From the NCBI GenBank assembly GCA_017417025.1, contig JAFPZY010000010.1, forward strand, positions 1-38,693: a stretch of DNA of 38,693 nucleotides, written 5' to 3'. Made by a program: the position numbers and the translations under genes. The notes beneath the pieces are model-generated. The model ran no database searches, was not told the DNA's origin, and was given only the letters and a program-made list of their open reading frames with translations. This document shows positions 15,462 through 26,823 of this stretch, one piece after another (position 1 is the stretch's first letter; each line of letters starts with the position of its first letter). The DNA comes from Paludibacteraceae bacterium (GTDB lineage: Bacteria > Bacteroidota > Bacteroidia > Bacteroidales > Paludibacteraceae).

Positions 15462-16026
15462 ATGTTGGTCTGCCTGTTTGGGGCGGTGTTAAGTGTGTGC
15501 AGGTTGGTCGGACAATACAGATACAGCACCGGTGTCGCATTAAACGCGGCTCCGTTGCTGTTCTTTATCACATCAACAATCCTCTATACCTGCTATTTCC
15601 TCTATTTCGCAGGTTATGGCAACCGGATACTGGAGGTACTCTACATTATGGCCAACCTCAGCGTATTCCCGCTCTTTTGGCTTTATCTCCGGAACCTTGT
15701 CCGCTAAAGCAGATGGAGTGCAGTAGTGCTGCTCTTGCCGGCCTTGTCGGTGGGAGTGCTGCTGGCGTTGTGCTCTGCTTTGGGCTGGGAGACAGGCTAT
15801 GGCGTAATACGCATGGTGGCTCGGTTCTTCTTCGCTGCACAGGTGCTCTTTGTCTGGATAAGCGGAAGCCTTTATGATCCGCGATTTCCGCAACAGATTT
15901 GACAACATCTACAGCGACGACCGCAACCGTGAGCTGCGTCCCGTCACTGTCATGCTTAACCTGCTTGGCATTATCTCGGTCATCTCCATTGGACTGACCG
16001 TCACTTGCTTACAGACTTGCTTCTAA
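15462..16026 (+). pseudogene. Disrupted membrane-bound AraC-type regulator, N-terminal part
   Basis: Conceptual translation from the ATG at 15462 gives hydrophobic helices (APLLFFITSTILYTCYFLYF, MANLSVFPLFWLYLRNLV), then an in-frame TAA (15705-15707), then another membrane stretch in the same frame (AVVLLLPALSVGVLLALCSA, MVARFFFAAQVLFVWI). A frameshift near 15865 continues as FRNRFDNIYSDDRNRELRPV and one more helix. This order of helices followed by a NxYSDD-like linker resembles the N-terminal half of Bacteroidetes AraC regulators with membrane sensors. The DNA-binding AraC domain is absent; the remnant runs into the convergent dehydrogenase gene (overlap 16009-16026). It is probably a dead gene. 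Confidence 0.65.
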
Positions 16027-17202
16027 AATGGCTTTTATGTCCTTCTCCGTGAGTGGGGCGTAAGCGCTTTCCAGACCTTCGTTCACGGCAATATGGTGGG
16101 CCATCTCGTCAAGACGGCTCTCGTCAATGCCCACTTCACGCAGGTGCATCGGGATCTTGATTGACTCAAAGAAGGCGTATGTTGCCTCAATAGCCTTATT
16201 CGCAATCTCCTGTTGCGGCAGCGAGGGGTCGATGTCAAAGACATTGATGCCGTACTTGACGAACCGCGGCAGGGTGTGCTCGTTCAGGATGTGCTTCATC
16301 CAGCGCGGCGTGATAATCGCCAGGCCCTCCCCGTGCGTGATGTCGTAATACGCACTCAGGGCGTGCTCTATGCCGTGGCAGGGCCAGCCTGACTCGCTGT
16401 TGCCGAGTGCCAGAATGCCGTTGCAGCCGTAGGTGCAGGCAAGCATCATCTCTGCGCGGGCTTTGTAGTCCTCGGGGTGGGCTATACACTTGCGCCCGTT
16501 CTCCATAAGCGAGCGCAGCATCGACTCGCAGAAACCGTCGTTGAGCAGCGTGGTGTCTTCTGCAAAATACTGCTCTATGGTGTGGTTCATCGCGTCGGCG
16601 ATGCCTGCGGCCGTCTGTTTCTTGCTGACGGAGAAGGTGTATGTCGGGTCAAGGAATGAGACGGCAGGGAACAAATGGCGGTCCACATAGCCTATCTTGT
16701 CGTTGGTCTCCGTGCGGGAGATTACGCCGCCGCAGTCGTATTCGCTGCCAGTAGCCGCGAGGGTTATTATATCCACTATCGGCAGTGCCGCTTGCGCTTT
16801 CACCTTGTAGGATATGAGGTCCCACGGGTCGCCGTCGTAGCACGCACCGGCAGCAATTGCCTTTGAGCAGTCAAGCACGCTGCCGCCGCCGACGGAGAGA
16901 ATAACGTCCGCCTTGTGCTCTTTGCACAGCCGCACGCCGTCTAAGACGGAAGGATTGTATTTCGGGTTCGGCTGAATACCGCTCAGTTCGATAATCTCGA
17001 AGTCCTTGAGTGCTTCATGCACGTAGTCATACAGGCTGCCTGCTGCCGGCTGATTCCTGAAAGCGGGAATCTTCTTTATGCTGCCTCCGCCGTAAGTGAG
17101 CAGGATCTTCTTGCCGAATGTGCTCATCACTTCAGGCAGTTTCTTTACTACACCCTCGCCGAAGATGAGGCGGGTGGGAGTTTGGTAATCAAAGTTTTGC
17201 AT
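16009..17202 (-). CDS. Iron-containing alcohol dehydrogenase (YqhD/BDH-like)
   Basis: 397 residues of the group III metal-dependent alcohol dehydrogenases, which use NAD(P)H to interconvert aldehydes and alcohols. Visible features are the nucleotide-binding YGGGSIKK (near residue 40) and VGGGSVLD (~104-111), and metal ligands Asp203 and His207 (GIADAMNHTIEQYF), His276 and His290 (CHGIEHALSAYYDITHGEG). An insertion of about 12 residues (IPAFRNQPAAGS, ~45-56) sits just after the first glycine motif, where relatives have a short loop. The gene follows the NRPS stop by 53 bp on the same strand with no recognisable promoter between, so it may belong to that operon and reduce the aldehyde released by the NRPS. 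It may equally be a general fermentative or detoxifying enzyme. Confidence 0.88.
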   Translation of the reverse strand: MQNFDYQTPTRLIFGEGVVKKLPEVMSTFGKKILLTYGGGSIKKIPAFRNQPAAGSLYDYVHEALKDFEIIELSGIQPNPKYNPSVLDGVRLCKEHKADVILSVGGGSVLDCSKAIAAGACYDGDPWDLISYKVKAQAALPIVDIITLAATGSEYDCGGVISRTETNDKIGYVDRHLFPAVSFLDPTYTFSVSKKQTAAGIADAMNHTIEQYFAEDTTLLNDGFCESMLRSLMENGRKCIAHPEDYKARAEMMLACTYGCNGILALGNSESGWPCHGIEHALSAYYDITHGEGLAIITPRWMKHILNEHTLPRFVKYGINVFDIDPSLPQQEIANKAIEATYAFFESIKIPMHLREVGIDESRLDEMAHHIAVNEGLESAYAPLTEKDIKAILEASL

Positions 17203-17228
17203 ATCTGTTTGTGTTATTGGTTATTTAT

Positions 17229-17270
17229 GTTATACATCAAAGAATAGGGGCTTGGTTATACATCAAAGAA
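17229..17270. repeat. 16-bp direct repeat at the 3' end of the NRPS gene
   Basis: The sequence GTTATACATCAAAGAA occurs at 17229-17244 and 17255-17270. The second copy encodes the final Phe-Phe-Asp-Val-stop of the NRPS, so the first copy is a duplicate of the gene end placed in the spacer before the dehydrogenase gene. Confidence 0.8.
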
Positions 17271-20200
17271 ACCGAGCTGGCTGATGGCTGACAGCATTCT
17301 GCCTATATACTCGTTGTCCGGCTCCGTCCAGCGGAAGCCGAGGCGTAGCAGCACTTGCGAGGTGTAGTCGTTGGTGCGGTCCACCACTTGTGTAGGTTGG
17401 TCTTTGGCTATATTCTTGTAAGCCAGCATCGTGGTTAGCAACGATGCCTTTTGTGGGTCTGCAGCCGCTTGCTGTACCAGCATACCGAACTCCTGTTGCT
17501 CTACAAAGCGGATAGGCGTGCCTATCTTCTCCAGCCCTGTCAGCACATCTCCCATAAGGCGGGTGTGGGTGTTGTAGGGGTGGAACAGTGTGCAGTCTGC
17601 AGGCGTGTGCGCAAGTAGTACTATGGCTCTTGCCGTTTCGTCTATAGGCGAGAACTCCGTCGGCTGGTCAAACTGCTCATAAGGGCAGCAGCCGAGCATG
17701 TTGAATATCTTGATGCGGCCCATGTAACTGTTGGTGGAGAAGTTTACCTGGAACTCTCCGTCGTAACTGCGTGCCGCCAGATTGCCTACGCGCATAATCT
17801 TTGCTTGTAGTCCCTTATGAGCCACTGCGTCAAGTATGAGGCGGTCGGCAAGGAACTTGGAGTGCATGTACTGGTTGCCGAGATACTGTCCGAAATAGAT
17901 ATTGCGCTCCGAGAGAACCGGTGACGGTGTATTGCCGCCAATCCATACACCTCCGGTTGAAGTGGTGGATACATGTACCAGATGTGCACCTGTAGCCAGG
18001 CAGAAGTCCACGCAGCGTTGCGCTCCGCCTGTATTGACATCCTCTATATCAGTCCCCTTGGAGAAGTGCTTGACATTGGCGGCGCAGTTGAAGACTGTGG
18101 AAATGCTGTAGTCAAGGGCAGATAGTTGCTCCTTGAAGTCGCCTGTCACGTCGCCGTTCACCACAAACAGGCGTGTGCCGAACAACTCGTTGAAATGACG
18201 GTCGAAATAGTAAAAGAGCAAGTTGCGCAGGCGGCGTTCTGCATCATGCCTGTCTTTGCCTCGCACAAGGCAGGTTATAGTCTCTGCATCAGAGTCTATA
18301 AGCTCGCGCAGCACGTGGATGCCTAAATAGCCTGTTGCTCCGGTCAGTAGTACATTGCCTAATGTCTGCCTTTCGCCATTGGCAAAAGTCTCAAGAGTAT
18401 TCTTCTGCAGGACGGTGTTGATGGGCTCGTAGTCAAAATCGGTGATGACACTGTCGCTCTCGCTTTCGGCACTTGCTTTCTCGGCTCCGTTTGCAAGTGC
18501 TGTCAGCAGGCGCGGGGTAGGATGGTTGAACAGGTCGGCGTATGCTATATGCAGCCCTGCTTTCTCCGCTTCTATAATGACGCGCGTCACCATGAGCGAT
18601 GTGCCGCCAAGCTCGAAGAAGTTGTCCGTAGCGCTTACTTTGTCAAGCGAGAGAACGTTGGCGAATATATCTGCAAAGAGTTGCTCGGTATCGTTGGCGG
18701 GGCAGACATAATCCTCTTCCTTCGCCTTCCTGTTCTCTGTCAAATCCGGTGCAGGCAGTGCACGCTTGTTCACTTTCTGGTTCTGGTTCAGCGGGATAGA
18801 GTCAATCTGCATCGTCGCTGCAGGCACCATGTAAGGTGGCTTGCGCTCCTTGATGAAGGCATGTAGTGCAGTTGTGTCTATCTTCTCGTCGCTGACTATG
18901 TATGCTGCAATGTACTTGCCGCCGTTGGGGTAGTCAAAGGCCTGGACTGTTGCGTCTTTTATGCCTGCAAACTCACGTATGACGCTTTCCACTTCCTTTA
19001 GCTCGATGCGGAAGCCGCGTATCTTTACTTGTCCGTCGCGACGGCCTACAAACTGAATGTTGCCGTCCGGCAGGTAACGCACTATGTCGCCTGTGCGGTA
19101 GCACCTAAGTCCGTCCCGTTCAACGAATGTCTCTGCTGTCTTGTCCGGCAGATTGAGGTAGCCGCGTCCCACTTGCGGACCGCTCACCCACAGCTCTCCT
19201 GCCGCTCCCGGTGGCAGACGCAGACCGTCGGTGTCCATTACGAACAGCTGCAGGTTATCCAACGGCTTGCCGATAGGGATATGCTGCTCATATTCGCCGA
19301 GGCAGTATGTGGTGGTGAATATGGTGCACTCTGTCGGCCCGTAGCCGTTGTGCATCTTGTAGCCTTTAGGCGGCGTGAGTGCGGATAACGCTTCGCCGCC
19401 CACCGACAGATGCTTGAGCGAATGGCACTCTATGTTGGTAGCAAACTGATAGCCTATCTGCGTGGTCATAAACGAGTGGGTCACGCCCTCTGCATCAAAG
19501 TAGCGCCCCAGTTCGGGCAGGTTCAGTCTCATGTCTTCGGGCACGATGCAGACTGAAGCGCCGCAGGTCAGGGCAGGATACATGTCCATCATGTTTGCAT
19601 CAAAACCGAATGAAGCGTATGCCGCCACTTTGTCGCCGGCTTGCAGGTCGTAGTAGCTGTGATACCAGTGGCAGAAAGCAACTATATTGCGGTGCTCCAG
19701 CATCACTCCTTTAGGCACACCCGTTGAGCCGGATGTGTAAAGGAGTATGAAGAGGTCCGAGGGCTTTATGTCGCTATTCAGGCGTTCCGCTGTATCTGTC
19801 TTGAGCGCGGCTTCCAGCTCTTTCTCTGTCAGGAGCATGCAGCTGTTGCCGTCCTGTTGCATGTAGTTGAGCCGCTCTTCCGGGTAAGAGGGGTCAAGCG
19901 GCATGTAGGCACAGCCTGCTTTTAGTACTGCCAGAGCACCTGTAACCATCCACTCCGACCGCTCCACTTTGATGGCAATGACGTTGGTCGTCGGGTGCAG
20001 TGCAGCCGCTATCCTGTCAGTTGTTTCATCCAGTTCGCGGTAGGTGATGCGCTTGTCGCGGAAGATGACGGCGGTGTTGTCCGGTGTCCTCGCCGCTTGT
20101 GCTCTGAACAAGGATACAATGGTCTGCGTGTCGTCGTACTTTACGTATGTCTCGTTGAAACTGTCAAGCAGTGCCTCCTGCTCTTTGTTGAGCAGCATCA

Positions 20201-23200
20201 CTGAGCGGAGCGCGGCTTTCGGAGCAGCGGCAAATGCGGCAACAGCATTGCTCACCGACTGTGCGAGGCTCTGCATCATTGCTTGGCTGTAACGCCCGTT
20301 GTCATATTCTATGGCTACGGAGGGACTGCCGTTCACTTCTACAATATAGAATGCAATCTTGAACTTCGGCACGTTCAGTTCCATATTCTCTGTCTGTAGC
20401 GGCACACCGTTCACTTTATAGTCTGATATTACGCCGAGCTGGTAGGCGAACATTATTTCGGCTGTCAGGCCGTAGTCTGCCGAAATCTGTGCAAACGGAT
20501 AGTTCTCGTGCGCAAGTGTGTTCTCAAACATCTCCGCTGTATCACTGATGAACTGCTGCACGGTCTGCCCGCCGATCTTGCTGCTCAGCGCGAGGGTGTT
20601 AACCATCATACCTACAGTGTTTGCCATCTTGAGATTGCTGCGTCCGTTGGATATGGTGGTGATGCAAATGGAGTCGTTGTTAGCGAAGCGCGCGAGGGTA
20701 TAGAATACGGCCGCCAGTGTCACACCGGCAGGAGTGGCTCCGGATGTATGTGCCAGTTGTTCCGCCGCCTGCATGTCAAGAGTAGCATACACTTGTCCAA
20801 TCTCGCCGTCTCTGGGGTTGGTGAGGTCTGCCGGCAGTTCGGTAGCACCCTCCGTCTCTGCAAGGCGCGAGTGGAAAAAGTCGTGTGCCGCTGTGTATGC
20901 TTCGCCTGTCCTTGCCGCCTGTTCTTCTGCCACGAACTGCGGATATGTACACATCTCCGGTTCTATCTTGCCTCCGTCAAGCAGCGTGCACAGTTCGTTG
21001 AAGAACACGTCGTATGATGCGCCGTCGCATACAAGGTGATGCATGTCGCAGTAGAGGTACAGACTGCTTGCCGTCCTCACTATACTGAACCTGCACAGCA
21101 GGTCTTTGTTTAGATTGAACGGCCGCACAAACTCGGCACGATAAGCTTCAAGGTTGGTCTCTTCTGTTATAATGCTTTCTATCTCAAGTTCCTGTTTCTT
21201 GTCTATAACCTGCTCCATACCGGACTCGTTGGTCTGGAAATGAACAAACAACTCGGGGTGGTTGTCCACTGCTGCCTCCACAGCTTTGCGCAGTTGCTCT
21301 TCGCTGATGTCTTGCGGCAGCCGCACACGCATTGGTATGTTGTATAGTGTGGAAGTGGGGTTCTTCATGCACTCGAAATAAACTCCCGTCTGTGCATGGC
21401 TGAGCGGGAAAGCGGCCGACTCACCTTGAACCGTTGACTGTTCTGTGTCCGCAGCACTGTCCTGTGTCTTTCTCCCCTCTGCCAGCACTTCTTCAAGAAT
21501 CTTGTTTTCAATGGTCTGTATGTCTGCGCCCTTGATGAGCAGTTTGGCATCAAGTTGCACTCCGAAGCGCTTATAGACTTGCGTGGCAAGTTTGATGGCG
21601 GATATAGAGGATAAACCAACATAGCGCAGGTCGGTGGTTATGCCGAAATCGCTGTTGCCTACAATGCCGGCTACAATATCCTTGAGTTGCTCTTCCAGCA
21701 CATTAAGCGGAGCTGCGTTTTCTTCTCTCTTTGGGCTTTCGGATGCTTTCGGTTCAGGCAGTGCACGCTTGTTTACTTTCTGGTTCTGGTTCAGCGGTAT
21801 AGTGTCTATCTGCATCGTCACTGCCGGCACCATATAAGGCGGCTTCCTGTCCATGATGAAGGCATTAAGTGTCTGAATGTCTATCTCCTCGTCGCTGACT
21901 ATGTATGCCGCTATGTACTTGCCGCCGCCCGGGTATTCAAACGCTTGAACCGTAGCGTCTTTGATGCTTGGGAACTGCCGTATTACGGCTTCCACCTCCT
22001 TCAACTCGATGCGGAAGCCGCGTATCTTTACCTGACCGTCTTTGCGGCCGACGAACTCAATGGCTCCGTCTGCACGATAGCGGACTATATCTCCGGTGCG
22101 GTAAACACGTATGCCGTGCCATTCCACAAAAGCCTCTTTCGTCTTCTCAGGCTGGTTGAGATAGCCAATTCCCACTTGCGGACCTGCAACAAGCATTTCG
22201 CCTGCTGCGCCCCACGGCACACGCTTGCCGTGTTTGGTGGTTATGAACAACTGCGCAGTGTCGTTAGGATAGCCGATAGGTATGTTAGGCTCGTTCCTTT
22301 CCACCAAATAGCTGCTTACATATACAGTCGCCTCTGTTGGGCCGTAGCCGTTCTGGAAGTGATATGAAGGAGGATTGACGCTCATCAGTTTCTCGCCGCC
22401 TGTTCCCATGAACTGCAGCCCGGGTATATCGGGGTAGTTCTGCACCATCTGCGTCGCCACCTGTGTGGTCATAAAGGTGTGGGTGATGCCTTCGCGCACA
22501 ATGAAATCGTGTATGCCTTCAAGGTCAAAGCGTATGTCGTCGCCTATTATGTATATCGCCGCCCCTGCAACAAGGCAGCCCCAGAGGTCGTGCATGAAAG
22601 CATCGAAGCCGTAGCCTGCGTATGTGGCATAGCGGCTTGTGTTTGTCAGACCTATATGGCGGCAGTGGAAGTCGCAGAATGAGAGTATGTTCTTTTCACT
22701 CAGCATCACACCTTTGGGAGTGCCGGTGGTGCCGGATGTGTAGAGCAGAATAAAAGCGTCAGTTCCTTCATATTTGGCCGCATCGTTGCGCATGAACTCC
22801 AACCGCTCGGCAGGGTACGAACTGTCTAACGGCAGTGCCGTCATGCCCGCTTTGGCAATAGCCAGAGGCACTATCACCATCTGCTCGTTGCGGGGGACGG
22901 TGTAGCCTGTCACTCTTTTGCCGCATCTTACTGTGTATTGCGGGTCTATGGTATCAGACAGTTTGTCCACTTCCGAATATGTAAGGTGTTTGTCTCCGGC
23001 CACTACGCATATTGCGTCAGGATGTTCTGCTACGTGCTTTCTGAAACGTGCCACAAGGCTGTCGCCTTCGGTGGTGTCGTATTCTTCTATGTCCGGATTG
23101 CGCGCGTCCAGCCATTGCGTCTGCTCCGGTGAGCAGTACTCAATGTCGCTTGTTGTTCCGGCGCAGGTCATGGAACGCAGTATGACGCTGTAAGTTTCAG

Positions 23201-24398
23201 CCAGTTGCTGCATGAACGCTTCCGAATAGTCTTTGCAGCTGTAGCTCATCTTGAGTGAGTACTGCTCGTCCGACTCTAACAGTTCTGCGCATAGTTTCCA
23301 TCCCGGTGTAGGGAAGCGAAGGTCAATGAACGGCACTGCCTGTCCGTCAATATGCAGACTGCGTTTGTCATTGATGACAGGTCCCTGATAAACGAACATC
23401 ACCTGGTTGTTGAGTCCCAGGTCGCGCACTGCATCCTGATAAGCGTAGTACTGGTATTGCTGTGTCTGCTGCAACTGGCTTTCGGTTTCTGCTAACAGCT
23501 CGCCGATAGTTTTGGTTTTCTGTCCCCAGTCAAGGAAAACAGGCAGCGTGTGTACCATCATTGTCACAGAACTCAGGGTGCGGCGGTCGGTGCGGCCGAA
23601 GAAGGCGGTGCAGTACGATGCCTTCTCTTCTGCCGAATAGGCGGCGAGCAGCAGTGCCCATGCCGCCTGCATTACCACGCTCTCTTTTGTGCCGAAGCGC
23701 TTTTCAATGGCCAGTATGTCTTCTTTGCTTACTGTGAGCGGGTATGATTTGTATATGTACCCCTCATCGCCTTGTAGTTCCGCTTCAGGAATGGGGAGCG
23801 AATCCGTGTCAGCCGCATCGCAGAAGGTTTTGGCATACCACTCGCGGGCTGACTCCATCTGCGTCTTGTCTGCTCTTTGTGCCTCCTCTGCCTGTGCAAT
23901 AGCCACGCCGTCCGTCATCTCTTTACTTGGTTTCCTGTCTTCGTAAGCACGGCTGATGTCGCGCAGAAGAACGGTGAAAGAGTAGCCGTCGCTCACCACG
24001 TGGTGCAGGTCCAGATAGAAGTATTGCGCTCCTTTCTCCTTCGTCTCATATATCTCTGCCCTGTAAAGCCGCTTCCCGTGTATATCCATTGTCCTGCAGA
24101 AAGTCTTTTGCACTTCCGTCCACTCCGCCTCTGTTATTTTCCTTACAGGCACGCACTCTTCTTTAGGGTGGCAGGTACCGCTCTCTATTGCGGGAATGCC
24201 TTCTCCGTCCGTTACAACTTTGCTTAGCAGATACGGATGTGCGCAAATAGTGTCATACACGGCCTGTTGCAACCGCTTGGTGTCTGTCTTTTCGGGTAGG
24301 TGGAATAGGGCGGGGTTCTGGTAGTTGCATGTGTCGTTCACTGATGTCTCGCATGCATAATATACTCCTAACTGGCTTTGGCTTAAAGGGCTTCTCAT
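17256..24398 (-). CDS. Bimodular nonribosomal peptide synthetase, C-A-T-C-A-T-R
   Basis: 2380 residues with two amino-acid-activating modules and a terminal reductase. Approximate domains: C1 1-430 (HHVVSDG at 132-138, catalytic motif intact); A1 450-860 ([45 protein letters not shown]); T1 895-965 (phosphopantetheine serine in VGLSSISAI); C2 985-1400 (HHLVCDG); A2 1430-1860 ([24 protein letters not shown]); T2 1885-1960 (LGGTSLM); R 2010-2380 ([10 protein letters not shown] nucleotide motif, catalytic YMHSK). No thioesterase or epimerase is present. The R domain should release the dipeptide as an aldehyde, which if N-free can cyclise to a dihydropyrazinone or pyrazinone, as with aureusimine-type enzymes. 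Starting with a C domain suggests N-acylation of the first residue. Hand-aligned specificity residues are about DAHFGGGVYK (A1) and DAMFSGGIFK (A2); I cannot assign amino acids. It follows the STAS gene by 7 bp. No phosphopantetheinyl transferase is in the window. Confidence 0.92.
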
Positions 24399-24405
24399 AA
24401 TAATT

Positions 24406-24708
24406 TCAACTGATGGTGAAGATGTTGTTGAATCCGCTCATGCGGAATATGTCTGACACGTCCTCGTTAAGGCGGGTAATCCGGATGCTGCCGCCTTTGG
24501 CTTCACTTTCGCGCTTCAGTTGCATGAAAAAGCGGAGGCCGGCTGAGGATATGTACTCCAGTCCGCTGCAGTCTATCACCAGTGCCTTGTCTGCTATGCC
24601 GAGCACCTGTTGCAGTTCGTCTGCCTGTTCGGTTGTTGCCACGGTATCAAGTTCTCCGTTGATAAGAACGGTGGTGTATTCTCCGTTTTTCTCAATCTTT
24701 ATTTGCAT
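24406..24708 (-). CDS. STAS-domain anti-sigma factor antagonist
   Basis: 100 residues forming one STAS domain like SpoIIAA/RsbV. The strand [20 protein letters not shown] is followed by [18 protein letters not shown], which contains the conserved serine (Ser55 by alignment) that a partner kinase phosphorylates. Unphosphorylated, such proteins bind the kinase/anti-sigma factor and free its target. Here the likely partner is the HATPase domain at the end of the upstream phosphatase gene, which overlaps this gene by 17 bp, and the PP2C domain of the same protein would remove the phosphate. The NRPS starts 7 bp after this gene's stop. No sigma factor is encoded nearby, so the output is unknown. 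Confidence 0.88.
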
Positions 24709-26767
24709 AATATCTGATGTGTTTTGTTATTTTAAGTATGTTTCTTTCTTCCTCGCGCCTGTAGTGCAACTCGTCGGCAGTCTGTCGCATCAGCGCTATC
24801 CCCAGACCGCCAATCCGCCGTTCTGCCACAGCTTTTTCAGGAGCTGTTGTTTCTTGCTTTGTCGGGTCGAATGGCTTTCCGTCGTCAGAGAGTTGTATGT
24901 TCAGTGTTTCGGATTGCAGGCTCATGTTCATGGTTATTCCCGCGGCATGTGAGTGTTTTATTATGTTCACTACGGCTTCTTCCACTGCCAATTCGGTCTT
25001 TTTCAGTGTCCTTTTGTCCATACCTGCACACAGGGCGTAGTTGTGGAGTGCAGTCCGCAGTACAGGCCATTGTTCTTCTTTGTTTTCCACACTAAGGCAT
25101 GCCGGTTGTGTCTCGCTTGTCTTTGCTATTACCAGCAGCGTCATGTCGTCCGCCTGCTCTGCTTTGCCCTTGAACTTGAGTCTCTCGTCGTTTATGGCGG
25201 TCATGTCTCCTTTTCTCAGATCCTCTGCCTCTTTCTCCACTAAAGCCGTCCAGCGTTTTGTTCCGAACATCTCGTGTTTCTCGTTCCGTGCTTCGGTTAT
25301 GCCGTCGGTGTAAAGGACTATCATATCGTCCTGCCCGAGCATCATTCCCTGCTCCTCAAACCTGTATTTCCCGTCATAGCCAAGCGGGATATCGGGCTCT
25401 GTCTTTACGCTTTCTACTTCCGACTCCTGATTCGCGACTTTTGACATTTGACTCCTAACCATCAGCGGAGGGAGATGGCCGGCATTGCAGAACAGCAACT
25501 CGCCTGTCGGTACGTGCAGCTGCCCGACAAACGCCGTGACGAACATCATTGAGGGATTGTTCTCGCTCAGCACTGCGTTCATGTCCTCCACTATGGCTTT
25601 TGGCGACTGCAAACGTCTAACGGCAGAGCGGAAAAGGTTCACCGTTGCACTCATGAACATAGCAGCTGTCACGCTTTTCCCGCTCACGTCTCCGATGATG
25701 AAGTAGAGGTCGTCCTCTTTTCTGTAAAAGTCGTACAGGTCGCCTCCCACTTCGCGCATGGGCACTAATGCCGCGTGCAGACTTACATCAGGCCATTTGT
25801 CGGCATGAACTTTCTCCCGTTCTCCTTCGCGCAGTATGCCTTTCTGTATAGTGCTGGCAATGTGCAGTTCGTGCTCCATCACCTTGTTTGCAGTCTCAAC
25901 GCGGGTGTATTCCTCTTTGTCTTGAAGCAGGCGGCGGATGAGCAGCCCCGCTGTCAGAATGCCGAATAGAAGGACAAGTGATGTTATCAGTGACATTCGG
26001 CTCACTCCGTCCCACAAGTGTTGGCGCGGAACGGCTGTCACTAAACGCATGTTCATAGGAGGCAGCAATTTCTCGGACACTATCATCTCCTTCCAGTCCT
26101 CCGTCTCTCCTGCCTGCACTATCAGTGTCCCGTTGGAACTGTATATTCTGCAAACCGCATCGTCGTAGGGGCGGGTGTCCGTCAGCAGTTGTTTTGCCCA
26201 TTCCAGCGTGTAGTCGGCGCACGCCACGCCTATTATGTTGCCGTTGTTGTCGTATGCTTTGCGCGAGTGGGTGAAGATAATGTTGTCGGTATCCGCATCT
26301 TTGTATGACGGTGTCCAGTAGCCGTTGTCGTCGCTTTCCATCGCACCTTTGTACCACTCTCGCTCAAAGTAGTCGAGTTGCTCCTCAAAGTGGTAGTTTA
26401 TGATGGAGTCGCGGCTGATACGCTGTGCGCAAACTGCATAGCGTTCGCCTTGTTTAGAAAAATAGTTCGGTACATAGCAGACATAGCAGCTGAACAGGTC
26501 GGGAAAACGCCATAGCACATTTTCTATGATAGCATAAAGACCTGCAGTGTCGTTCACGCAGTAGGGCAGGAAATGCACAATCTCCGCCGTGGCTTCGGGC
26601 ATGTCGTACACCTCAAGCAGAAAGTCCTTGCTTGCAAGGTCCATCTTATAAGTGATGCGATTCTTTATGTCGGCTTTGTTGCGGCTGTACGACACAAAGA
26701 ATTGAGTCGTCATTGCAATGACGAGGAACACGGCAGATACTATAGGCAGCGACTTTTTTATTCTCAT
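24692..26767 (-). CDS. dCache sensor, PP2C (SpoIIE/RsbU) phosphatase and HATPase kinase fusion
   Basis: 691 residues. TM1 is at ~7-27. An outside dCache-type sensor (28-255) contains EWYKGAMESDDNGYWTPSYK and the closing NIIGVACADYTLEW. TM2 is at ~258-278, followed by a coiled helix (290-312) leading into the PP2C domain (~330-548) with metal-binding GGDLYDF, GDVSGKS, YTDGITEARN and QADDMTLLVI. The C-terminal RsbW-like HATPase (~560-685) has an N-box ELAVEEAVVNIIKH, G1 DDGKPFDP and G2 GGLGIALMR. Opposing activities, STAS phosphatase and STAS kinase, are thus joined in one receptor. By family knowledge, ligand binding outside should shift the phosphorylation state of the STAS protein encoded next. 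It is the first gene of the NRPS operon, so secondary-metabolite production may answer to an external cue. A linker of about 20 polar residues (~440-458, RSQMSKVANQESEVESVK) interrupts the PP2C domain. Confidence 0.9.
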   Translation of the reverse strand: MRIKKSLPIVSAVFLVIAMTTQFFVSYSRNKADIKNRITYKMDLASKDFLLEVYDMPEATAEIVHFLPYCVNDTAGLYAIIENVLWRFPDLFSCYVCYVPNYFSKQGERYAVCAQRISRDSIINYHFEEQLDYFEREWYKGAMESDDNGYWTPSYKDADTDNIIFTHSRKAYDNNGNIIGVACADYTLEWAKQLLTDTRPYDDAVCRIYSSNGTLIVQAGETEDWKEMIVSEKLLPPMNMRLVTAVPRQHLWDGVSRMSLITSLVLLFGILTAGLLIRRLLQDKEEYTRVETANKVMEHELHIASTIQKGILREGEREKVHADKWPDVSLHAALVPMREVGGDLYDFYRKEDDLYFIIGDVSGKSVTAAMFMSATVNLFRSAVRRLQSPKAIVEDMNAVLSENNPSMMFVTAFVGQLHVPTGELLFCNAGHLPPLMVRSQMSKVANQESEVESVKTEPDIPLGYDGKYRFEEQGMMLGQDDMIVLYTDGITEARNEKHEMFGTKRWTALVEKEAEDLRKGDMTAINDERLKFKGKAEQADDMTLLVIAKTSETQPACLSVENKEEQWPVLRTALHNYALCAGMDKRTLKKTELAVEEAVVNIIKHSHAAGITMNMSLQSETLNIQLSDDGKPFDPTKQETTAPEKAVAERRIGGLGIALMRQTADELHYRREEERNILKITKHIRYYANKD

Positions 26768-26792: not shown

Positions 26793-26823
26793 CAAAGTTA
26801 GTACTTTTCTGCCGGATATACAA
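26793..26823 (-). promoter_or_regulatory. Promoter of the phosphatase-STAS-NRPS operon
   Basis: On the minus strand TTG (26823-26821), a 20-bp spacer and TAACTTTG (26800-26793) match the Bacteroidetes consensus. The ATG at 26767 is 25 nt beyond the -7 element, giving a short leader. Confidence 0.8.

Follow-up and report, generated by a model that had tools for sequence, protein, structure and literature searches.

A predicted partner switch linked to a reductase-ended peptide synthetase in Bacteroidales

The 38,693 bp contig JAFPZY010000010.1 of a Paludibacteraceae bacterium (assembly GCA_017417025.1), referred to here as the window, carries a minus-strand run of four open reading frames (ORFs). 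They predict a receptor, a STAS protein, a non-ribosomal peptide synthetase (NRPS) and an iron-type alcohol dehydrogenase (Fe-ADH; Table 1). The receptor and STAS genes overlap by 17 bp, 7 bp separate the STAS and NRPS genes, and 53 bp lie between the NRPS and Fe-ADH genes. The ORFs were re-derived to the base, and their strands, overlap and gaps agree exactly with a first-pass annotation, which had interpreted the four genes as a signal-gated operon. That interpretation holds in part: the receptor, STAS protein and NRPS recur together as a unit, which does not include the ADH as a fourth member. The host is a gut bacterium, probably of rumen origin, and the near relatives of the window are chiefly Bacteroidales, Paludibacteraceae or Bacteroidaceae metagenome-assembled genomes, many of ruminant origin.

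Linkage was examined in 178 genomes of the genus, with the NRPS called at >1300 bits and at least 60% identity. The NRPS is present in 48 of them and also in G183, where the contig breaks off a little way into the start of the NRPS gene (L145), giving 49. A close STAS protein (at least 68% identity) is found in 44 of these 49 genomes and in 0 of the other 129 (tallied by hand from listings; Fisher value 1.6e-36, relatedness ignored). Among the matches listed, STAS identities fall into two classes, at least 68% (the 44 genomes) and 45% or less. In three of the five NRPS genomes that have no close STAS (G043, G088 and G157) the locus is truncated at a contig end. A fourth, G138, retains the NRPS (A1 78%) with a distant pair in the same place (receptor 26%, STAS 37%; L142), representing a regulator swap, and the fifth, G127, is considered below. 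A less closely related NRPS subtype (36-50% identity) occurs in some of the 129 genomes, often next to a distant receptor-STAS pair. G158, which has a 120-residue NRPS fragment of 73% identity and no close STAS, was not tallied as an NRPS genome. Where the receptor gene is just upstream, the STAS match (HMM, hidden Markov model, end) lies at most 117 nt from the NRPS start (34/34 loci). The window genome (2.18 Mb, 89% complete) contains only 2 SpoIIE, 2 STAS and 2 above-cut-off HATPase_c_2 genes and, because such genes are few and the arrangement recurs in relatives, a chance juxtaposition is very unlikely.

The association extends beyond the genus. A contig scan yielded 188 stretches encoding relatives, of which 80 were taken (78 distinct loci). 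Together with loci from further genomes there were 131 NRPS-reductase units, 119 after deduplication, of which 76 are flanked by 3 kb or more at each end. STAS, PP2C or HATPase_c_2 is found within 6 kb in 62 of the 71 well-flanked loci that include a condensation (C) domain, many of which are closely related to each other, and both STAS and PP2C in 57. Adenylation-reductase enzymes that have no C domain have partners in 1 of 5 cases (Fisher p=0.0025 versus C-containing loci, relatedness ignored). The association counts are six-frame HMM matches, used because longest-ORF gene calling gave antisense errors (L116 and L117). They contradict the possibility that relatives with the NRPS generally lack the phosphatase and STAS genes, which the first-pass annotation had said would make the arrangement accidental.

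Among 98 NRPS loci (duplicates kept) the most frequent neighbours are the receptor (70) and STAS (62), followed by a MATE exporter (20). The gene orders seen are receptor-STAS-NRPS, NRPS-receptor-STAS, NRPS-STAS-receptor and receptor-STAS-porin-NRPS-MATE, and in L071 a receptor-STAS pair is found on either side of the NRPS. In a reductase tree of 108 rows, a quick tree with some long branches, the position of STAS (upstream, downstream or both) changes at least 10 times among the 77 linked rows. The tree state 'none' includes two loci with partners, L149, where STAS seems to overlap the first C match, and L127, which has PP2C and a MATE-HATPase. STAS divergence tracks that of the whole NRPS (r=0.83, 49 loci).

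The Fe-ADH gene does not share this history. Its closest NCBIfam model is PRK15138 (271 bits against a cut-off of 645), and among clustered loci the ADH cluster adjoins the NRPS in the window only, its sole relative (L110) being located ~3.6 kb away. The four-gene order is therefore not kept in relatives, which rules out core membership for the ADH, a local gene, and leaves a conserved unit of three genes: receptor, STAS and reductase-ended NRPS. A candidate match to the Bacteroidota-type promoter pattern, which we take to be TTG, a spacer and TAnnTTTG, precedes the receptor gene (Table 1). In the window this strict pattern was not found from the receptor end to the NRPS start. The pattern occurs within 300 bp 5' of the receptor in 8 of the 34 loci with enough sequence, the window counted, and between the receptor end and the NRPS start in 1 of 37 (L082).

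Table 1. Features of the minus-strand gene run in the window, with related exporter fusions at other loci
Feature	Position	Strand	Basis and remarks
Receptor, 691 aa; PDC/dCache sensor (extracytoplasmic), SpoIIE-type PP2C and RsbW-type HATPase_c_2 kinase; predicted membrane protein	24692..26767	-	ORF, Pfam
Sensor part (PDC/dCache); pocket residues R136, W138, Y155, D157, D185	26111..26539	-	Pfam, five-residue criterion
SpoIIE/PP2C phosphatase domain	25127..25717	-	Pfam
HATPase_c_2 domain, RsbW-like serine kinase	24722..25087	-	Pfam
STAS protein, 100 aa	24406..24708	-	Pfam STAS; TIGR00377 (anti-sigma-factor-antagonist superfamily) over cut-off
STAS Ser55 codon, expected phosphorylation site	24544..24546	-	Alignments of STAS relatives and solved anti-sigma antagonists
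NRPS, C-A-T-C-A-T-R, 2380 aa	17256..24398	-	ORF, Pfam
NRPS first condensation domain, HHVVSDG, likely N-acylating starter C	23079..24398	-	Bounds approximate
NRPS first adenylation domain	21729..23036	-	Bounds by eye
NRPS first carrier domain, GLSSI Ser	21444..21686	-	Bounds by eye
NRPS second condensation domain, HHLVCDG	20169..21410	-	Pfam
NRPS second adenylation domain	18756..20108	-	Pfam; solved relatives
NRPS second carrier domain	18498..18674	-	Pfam
NRPS terminal reductase, NAD_binding_4	17259..18347	-	Pfam; YxxxK pair
Candidate Bacteroidota-type promoter, TTG-N20-TAACTTTG, 5' of receptor	26793..26823	-	Pattern match
Fe-ADH, iron-type alcohol/aldehyde dehydrogenase, 397 aa	16009..17202	-	Pfam; local passenger, outside conserved core
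MATE-HATPase fusion loci	L124:9259-11016, L113:11395-13170, L127, L129, L163, L164, L168, L172, L188, L125		Beside reductase NRPS

The receptor has Pfam matches to PDC/dCache, SpoIIE and HATPase_c_2 (the last at E=4.9e-23). Its best match among solved structures is Rv1364c (3ke6), and RsbW is also among its solved relatives. Conserved residues were counted on called genes, with a few contigs present twice, in the 60 of 74 receptor cluster members that exceed 600 aa. The metal-binding aspartates of PP2C (343, 360, 488 and 541) are retained in 60/60, and the N-box Asn601 in all 58 of the 60 that carry the HATPase domain; the N-box and G boxes of the window receptor are intact. Ser55 of the STAS protein, the solved relatives of which are anti-sigma antagonists, is Ser in 65/65 aligned proteins (65 of the 66 cluster members, one longer ORF being left out). 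The predicted proteins therefore have the PP2C aspartates, RsbW-type HATPase and phosphorylatable STAS serine of a partner switch, and the switch residues are intact and conserved in relatives, which supports the first-pass interpretation. A plasmid search with the STAS protein gave 14 records, every one <60% identical.

The sensor is the quickest-diverging domain of the receptor. Over 32 near receptors, median identity to the window is 45% for the sensor, 52% for the kinase and 62% for the phosphatase, compared with 75.5% for STAS. Sensor scores are 53.6 for MCP-like_PDC_1, over its cut-off of 27, and 41.5 for dCache_1, under its cut-off of 45. In a set of 36 near receptors, for which phosphatase identity rather than the motif was the criterion, W138, Y155 and D185 never vary, and the complete pocket R136-W138-Y155-D157-D185 is found in 31, window included; in distant receptors the pocket is altered and the five residues are complete in 1/24. 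These are the unselected counts, as alignment A3 was drawn from motif-bearing receptors and its invariant columns are circular; like the identities, they come from called genes with a few contigs included twice. A sensor profile, likewise built from receptors already bearing the five-residue motif, matches PctA chains at E=1.9e-5 and also other dCache chemoreceptor structures. Judged from spacing and from alignments to 4xmq and 6mni, the pocket residues of the window correspond to PctA R126, W128, Y144, D146 and D173, the CahR set. According to the available text of two reports, these residues define dCache domains that bind autoinducer-2 (AI-2), including those of rumen bacteria (PMC7584622, PMC9540692), and several of the five are shared with an amino-acid motif in the available part of another (PMC10104139). 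As the five pocket residues match those of PctA, our best guess for the ligand in the window genus is an amino acid or AI-2, and the proposal of a sensor for an outside signal gains a candidate pocket.

The C-A-T-C-A-T-R architecture (condensation, adenylation, carrier, reductase) assigned earlier to the NRPS is borne out by Pfam, which detects Condensation in two stretches, AMP-binding, PP-binding twice and, at the end, NAD_binding_4. The protein thus belongs with two-module NRPS enzymes that end in a thioester reductase, and the Tyr and Lys of the reductase (YxxxK) are invariant in 10/10 aligned sequences. AusA, which is A-T-C-A-T-R and lacks the first C domain, provides the best NCBIfam model (NF047350), but the score of 1032 bits is below the cut-off of 2500 and the window enzyme is not assigned as an aureusimine synthetase. 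The closest solved relatives of the second adenylation domain are linear gramicidin synthetase LgrA entries. Condensation domains in the window genome are confined to this NRPS. Its product is predicted to be an N-acyl dipeptide aldehyde by analogy with a Clostridium cluster, which is described as yielding such compounds in the available text of PMC8518294. A sister clade has no first C domain (matches begin at about residue 446) and should make a free-amine aldehyde and its pyrazinone. This clade retains the receptor and STAS genes, and the linkage is therefore independent of the first C domain. In the clade (L076, L088, L093, L104 and L119) a gene upstream overlaps the receptor start by 4 bp; the L069 member of its cluster belongs to the sodium:neurotransmitter symporter family.

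STAS genes are also found in other contexts. Some low-identity STAS matches adjoin more distant NRPS genes. The gene after a paralogous STAS gene encodes a RelA/SpoT-domain protein in 18/18 loci examined (L132-L140 and L153-L161), and an APH-family gene is next in 15 of the 18, the other three stopping at a contig end. In the window genome the STAS-RelA-APH set is on C29 (G000:C29, L132:7563-9808) and the corresponding receptor on C51 (L131). A MATE exporter with a C-terminal HATPase_c_2 domain is encoded near the NRPS in Clostridia and some Bacteroidales; HMM matches give 14 distinct examples, of which four are weak (31 bits or less). Pfam confirms the fusion in L113 (1.7e-9) and in the first copy of L124 (E=3.5e-15), the second L124 copy being below cut-off. 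In L124 the genes follow one another as NRPS, MATE-HATPase, STAS, another MATE-HATPase, GH3, HAMP-SpoIIE and an unfused HATPase. The paralogue and the fusions suggest that partner switches can have enzymes or transporters as targets. A GH3-family acyl-amido synthetase gene, assigned by Pfam on the L124 copy, is located just 5' of the phosphatase gene in both L124:13241-14941 (Clostridia) and L055:5877-7574 (Bacteroidales).

To judge from these sequence comparisons, the receptor, STAS protein and NRPS probably work together as a single unit, in which a dedicated partner switch governs a peptide-aldehyde pathway after transcription. The sensor would bind a small molecule from outside, for which an amino acid or AI-2 is the likeliest candidate, and binding would shift the balance between the receptor's own phosphatase and kinase. 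This balance would set the phosphorylation state of STAS Ser55, and the STAS protein would control the neighbouring NRPS pathway post-transcriptionally, through contact with the NRPS or through a step closely linked to it, for instance export. We infer which ligand is bound, in which direction the switch works, what STAS targets and what is made. Binding of STAS to the NRPS, with the assembly line switched by the phosphorylation state of Ser55, is plausible and is the step that we favour, though it is suggested only tentatively. Together with that gate, and with the same reserve, the receptor-STAS pair may be seen as a general chassis with plug-in effectors, namely the NRPS, the RelA/SpoT-type enzyme of the paralogue and the kinase-fused MATE of Clostridia. 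A STAS gate of this kind would, to our knowledge, be the first such post-translational gate on an NRPS.

Several observations weigh against a dedicated switch. Nine of the 71 well-flanked loci have no partners, namely L037, L039 and L144 in the window's own genus, L091 and L096, both titled Prevotella, and L130, L162, L174 and L180 on the Clostridia side; L086, a near neighbour of L091 and L096, has a receptor-STAS pair. In G127 (L143) the receptor has no HATPase domain and there is no STAS gene between it and the NRPS. The linkage rule is weaker in Clostridia, because in an order-level sample of 392 genomes, 25 with a strong reductase, partners are present in only 3/6 well-flanked C-containing loci, and any partner in 9/24 fetched regions, many of them cut by contig ends. 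No fusion of the NRPS with STAS, HATPase or PP2C was found in the loci examined, which removes NRPS-STAS fusion as evidence of contact. Partial co-divergence values are weak, the best being 0.34 for the N-terminal half of the second C domain, and no NRPS domain is singled out.

Other explanations were weighed against the dedicated switch. Accidental juxtaposition could appeal to the nine partnerless loci and to the ADH gene next door, which is such a passenger, but it is ruled out by the genus cross-tabulation and the wider counts (44/49 versus 0/129, and 62/71) and merits almost no credence; the linkage is not accidental. If co-location meant co-expression only, the receptor and STAS protein would report stress or product and act elsewhere, with no post-transcriptional regulation of the NRPS. 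The presence of the paralogous receptor and STAS on separate contigs in the window genome could be taken in this sense, but the linkage has outlasted 10 or more changes of STAS position as well as a regulator swap, and no other neighbour is as frequent, making this very improbable. A switch that works on transcription, with STAS freeing or binding a regulator (not SigB-type) of the operon or of a larger regulon in which the NRPS is one output, is a more serious contender, though still unlikely. Classic partner switches control sigma factors, and further region-2 sigma genes of extracytoplasmic function (ECF) size are present in the genomes. For SypA of Vibrio, likewise, no target is identified in the available text of PMC8256260. 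However, exactly one region-3 sigma factor was found in 23 of 24 NRPS-bearing genomes and none in G065 (54% complete); these proteins are mostly ~290 to 340 aa, the size expected of the housekeeping factor. No region-2 sigma gene was found on the NRPS contig within ~9 kb in the 24 genomes (the nearest is in G135), and the operon itself contains neither a sigma factor nor a cyclic-nucleotide enzyme, as the first-pass annotation had stated. As no SigB/SigF-type sigma factor was found in these 24 incomplete genomes, a SigB-type target is ruled out as far as they are complete (89% for the window genome). The window genome also lacks a separate RsbW above cut-off, as both of its above-cut-off HATPase_c_2 domains are fused inside the two receptors.

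Alternatively, STAS may gate export by docking on the HATPase of a MATE exporter, in which case the window genus would use an exporter encoded elsewhere. The MATE-HATPase fusions described above favour this, as do other Bacteroidales loci in which an unfused MATE gene adjoins the NRPS. However, the window operon has neither a MATE gene nor a fused HATPase, no above-cut-off HATPase_c_2 was found in the window genome outside its two receptors, and some of the fused domains are missing parts of the ATP site. Gating of export is accordingly considered improbable, and a switch dedicated to the NRPS pathway is preferred. In L100:18701-26176 and L121, two reductase NRPS genes occur in tandem with a MATE gene after each.

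The receptor has the same phosphatase and kinase domains as Mycobacterium Rv1364c and Bacillus RsbU/RsbV/RsbW, both of which control a sigma factor, but differs in that the genomes surveyed here yielded no SigB/SigF-type sigma factor. In HsbR-HsbA-HsbD of Pseudomonas the partner protein acts directly on a cyclic-di-GMP enzyme, and SiaC, the partner protein of Pseudomonas SiaABCD, is not a STAS family protein. Indigoidine, a pigment made by an NRPS, offers a further parallel. Its production in Vogesella is controlled by an RsbW-like domain protein, but TciK-TciR is a two-component system with a receiver-RsbW protein, and no conserved PP2C-STAS-NRPS operon is reported in the available text of PMC12826045. 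SiaC directly activates an enzyme, the diguanylate cyclase SiaD (PMC8457831, available part), the effector thus being a cyclic-di-GMP enzyme, unlike that of the window. Vibrio fischeri SypE-SypA, as far as the available text of two reports describes it, also combines an RsbW-like kinase and PP2C in one protein, with a STAS protein phosphorylated at serine 56 and an output that involves no known sigma factor. Unlike the window receptor, SypE has a receiver domain and no periplasmic sensor is described, and the output is biofilm formation, not an NRPS (PMC8256260, PMC12826045). The gut dipeptide-aldehyde NRPS family and AusA share the modular architecture with a terminal reductase, but no dedicated partner switch is mentioned for the gut family in the available part of PMC8518294.

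Among the matches listed, no description of the receptor-STAS-NRPS unit was found in the open-licence literature on NRPS or biosynthetic clusters with STAS, SpoIIE or anti-sigma, or in that on reductase NRPS with Bacteroidales and the rumen. Likewise among the matches listed, nothing relevant was found there on MATE exporters joined with HATPase. In the unit, a type of signalling system known mainly from the control of sigma factors is connected with natural-product synthesis, in animal-gut bacteria of both Bacteroidales and Clostridia. The usual clustering of the receptor, STAS and NRPS genes in related bacteria suggests control of this chemistry by an outside signal, with no part for the customary sigma factor. 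According to the available text of PMC8518294, compounds of related type inhibit proteases and act on gut epithelial cells. The search for gut natural products has long been hampered by ignorance of their triggers; should the receptor respond to amino acids or AI-2, the triggers of these pathways would form a short testable list. The MATE-HATPase fusions and RelA/SpoT-linked paralogue suggest that direct partner-switch control of enzymes or transporters may be commoner than realised.

In 13 loci of more distant NRPS types, including L034, L035, L097, L100, L101, L121 and L126, a porin-like protein (cluster c5, labelled by eye, with no Pfam match for the L034 member) adjoins STAS or the NRPS and is possibly an outer-membrane exit path.

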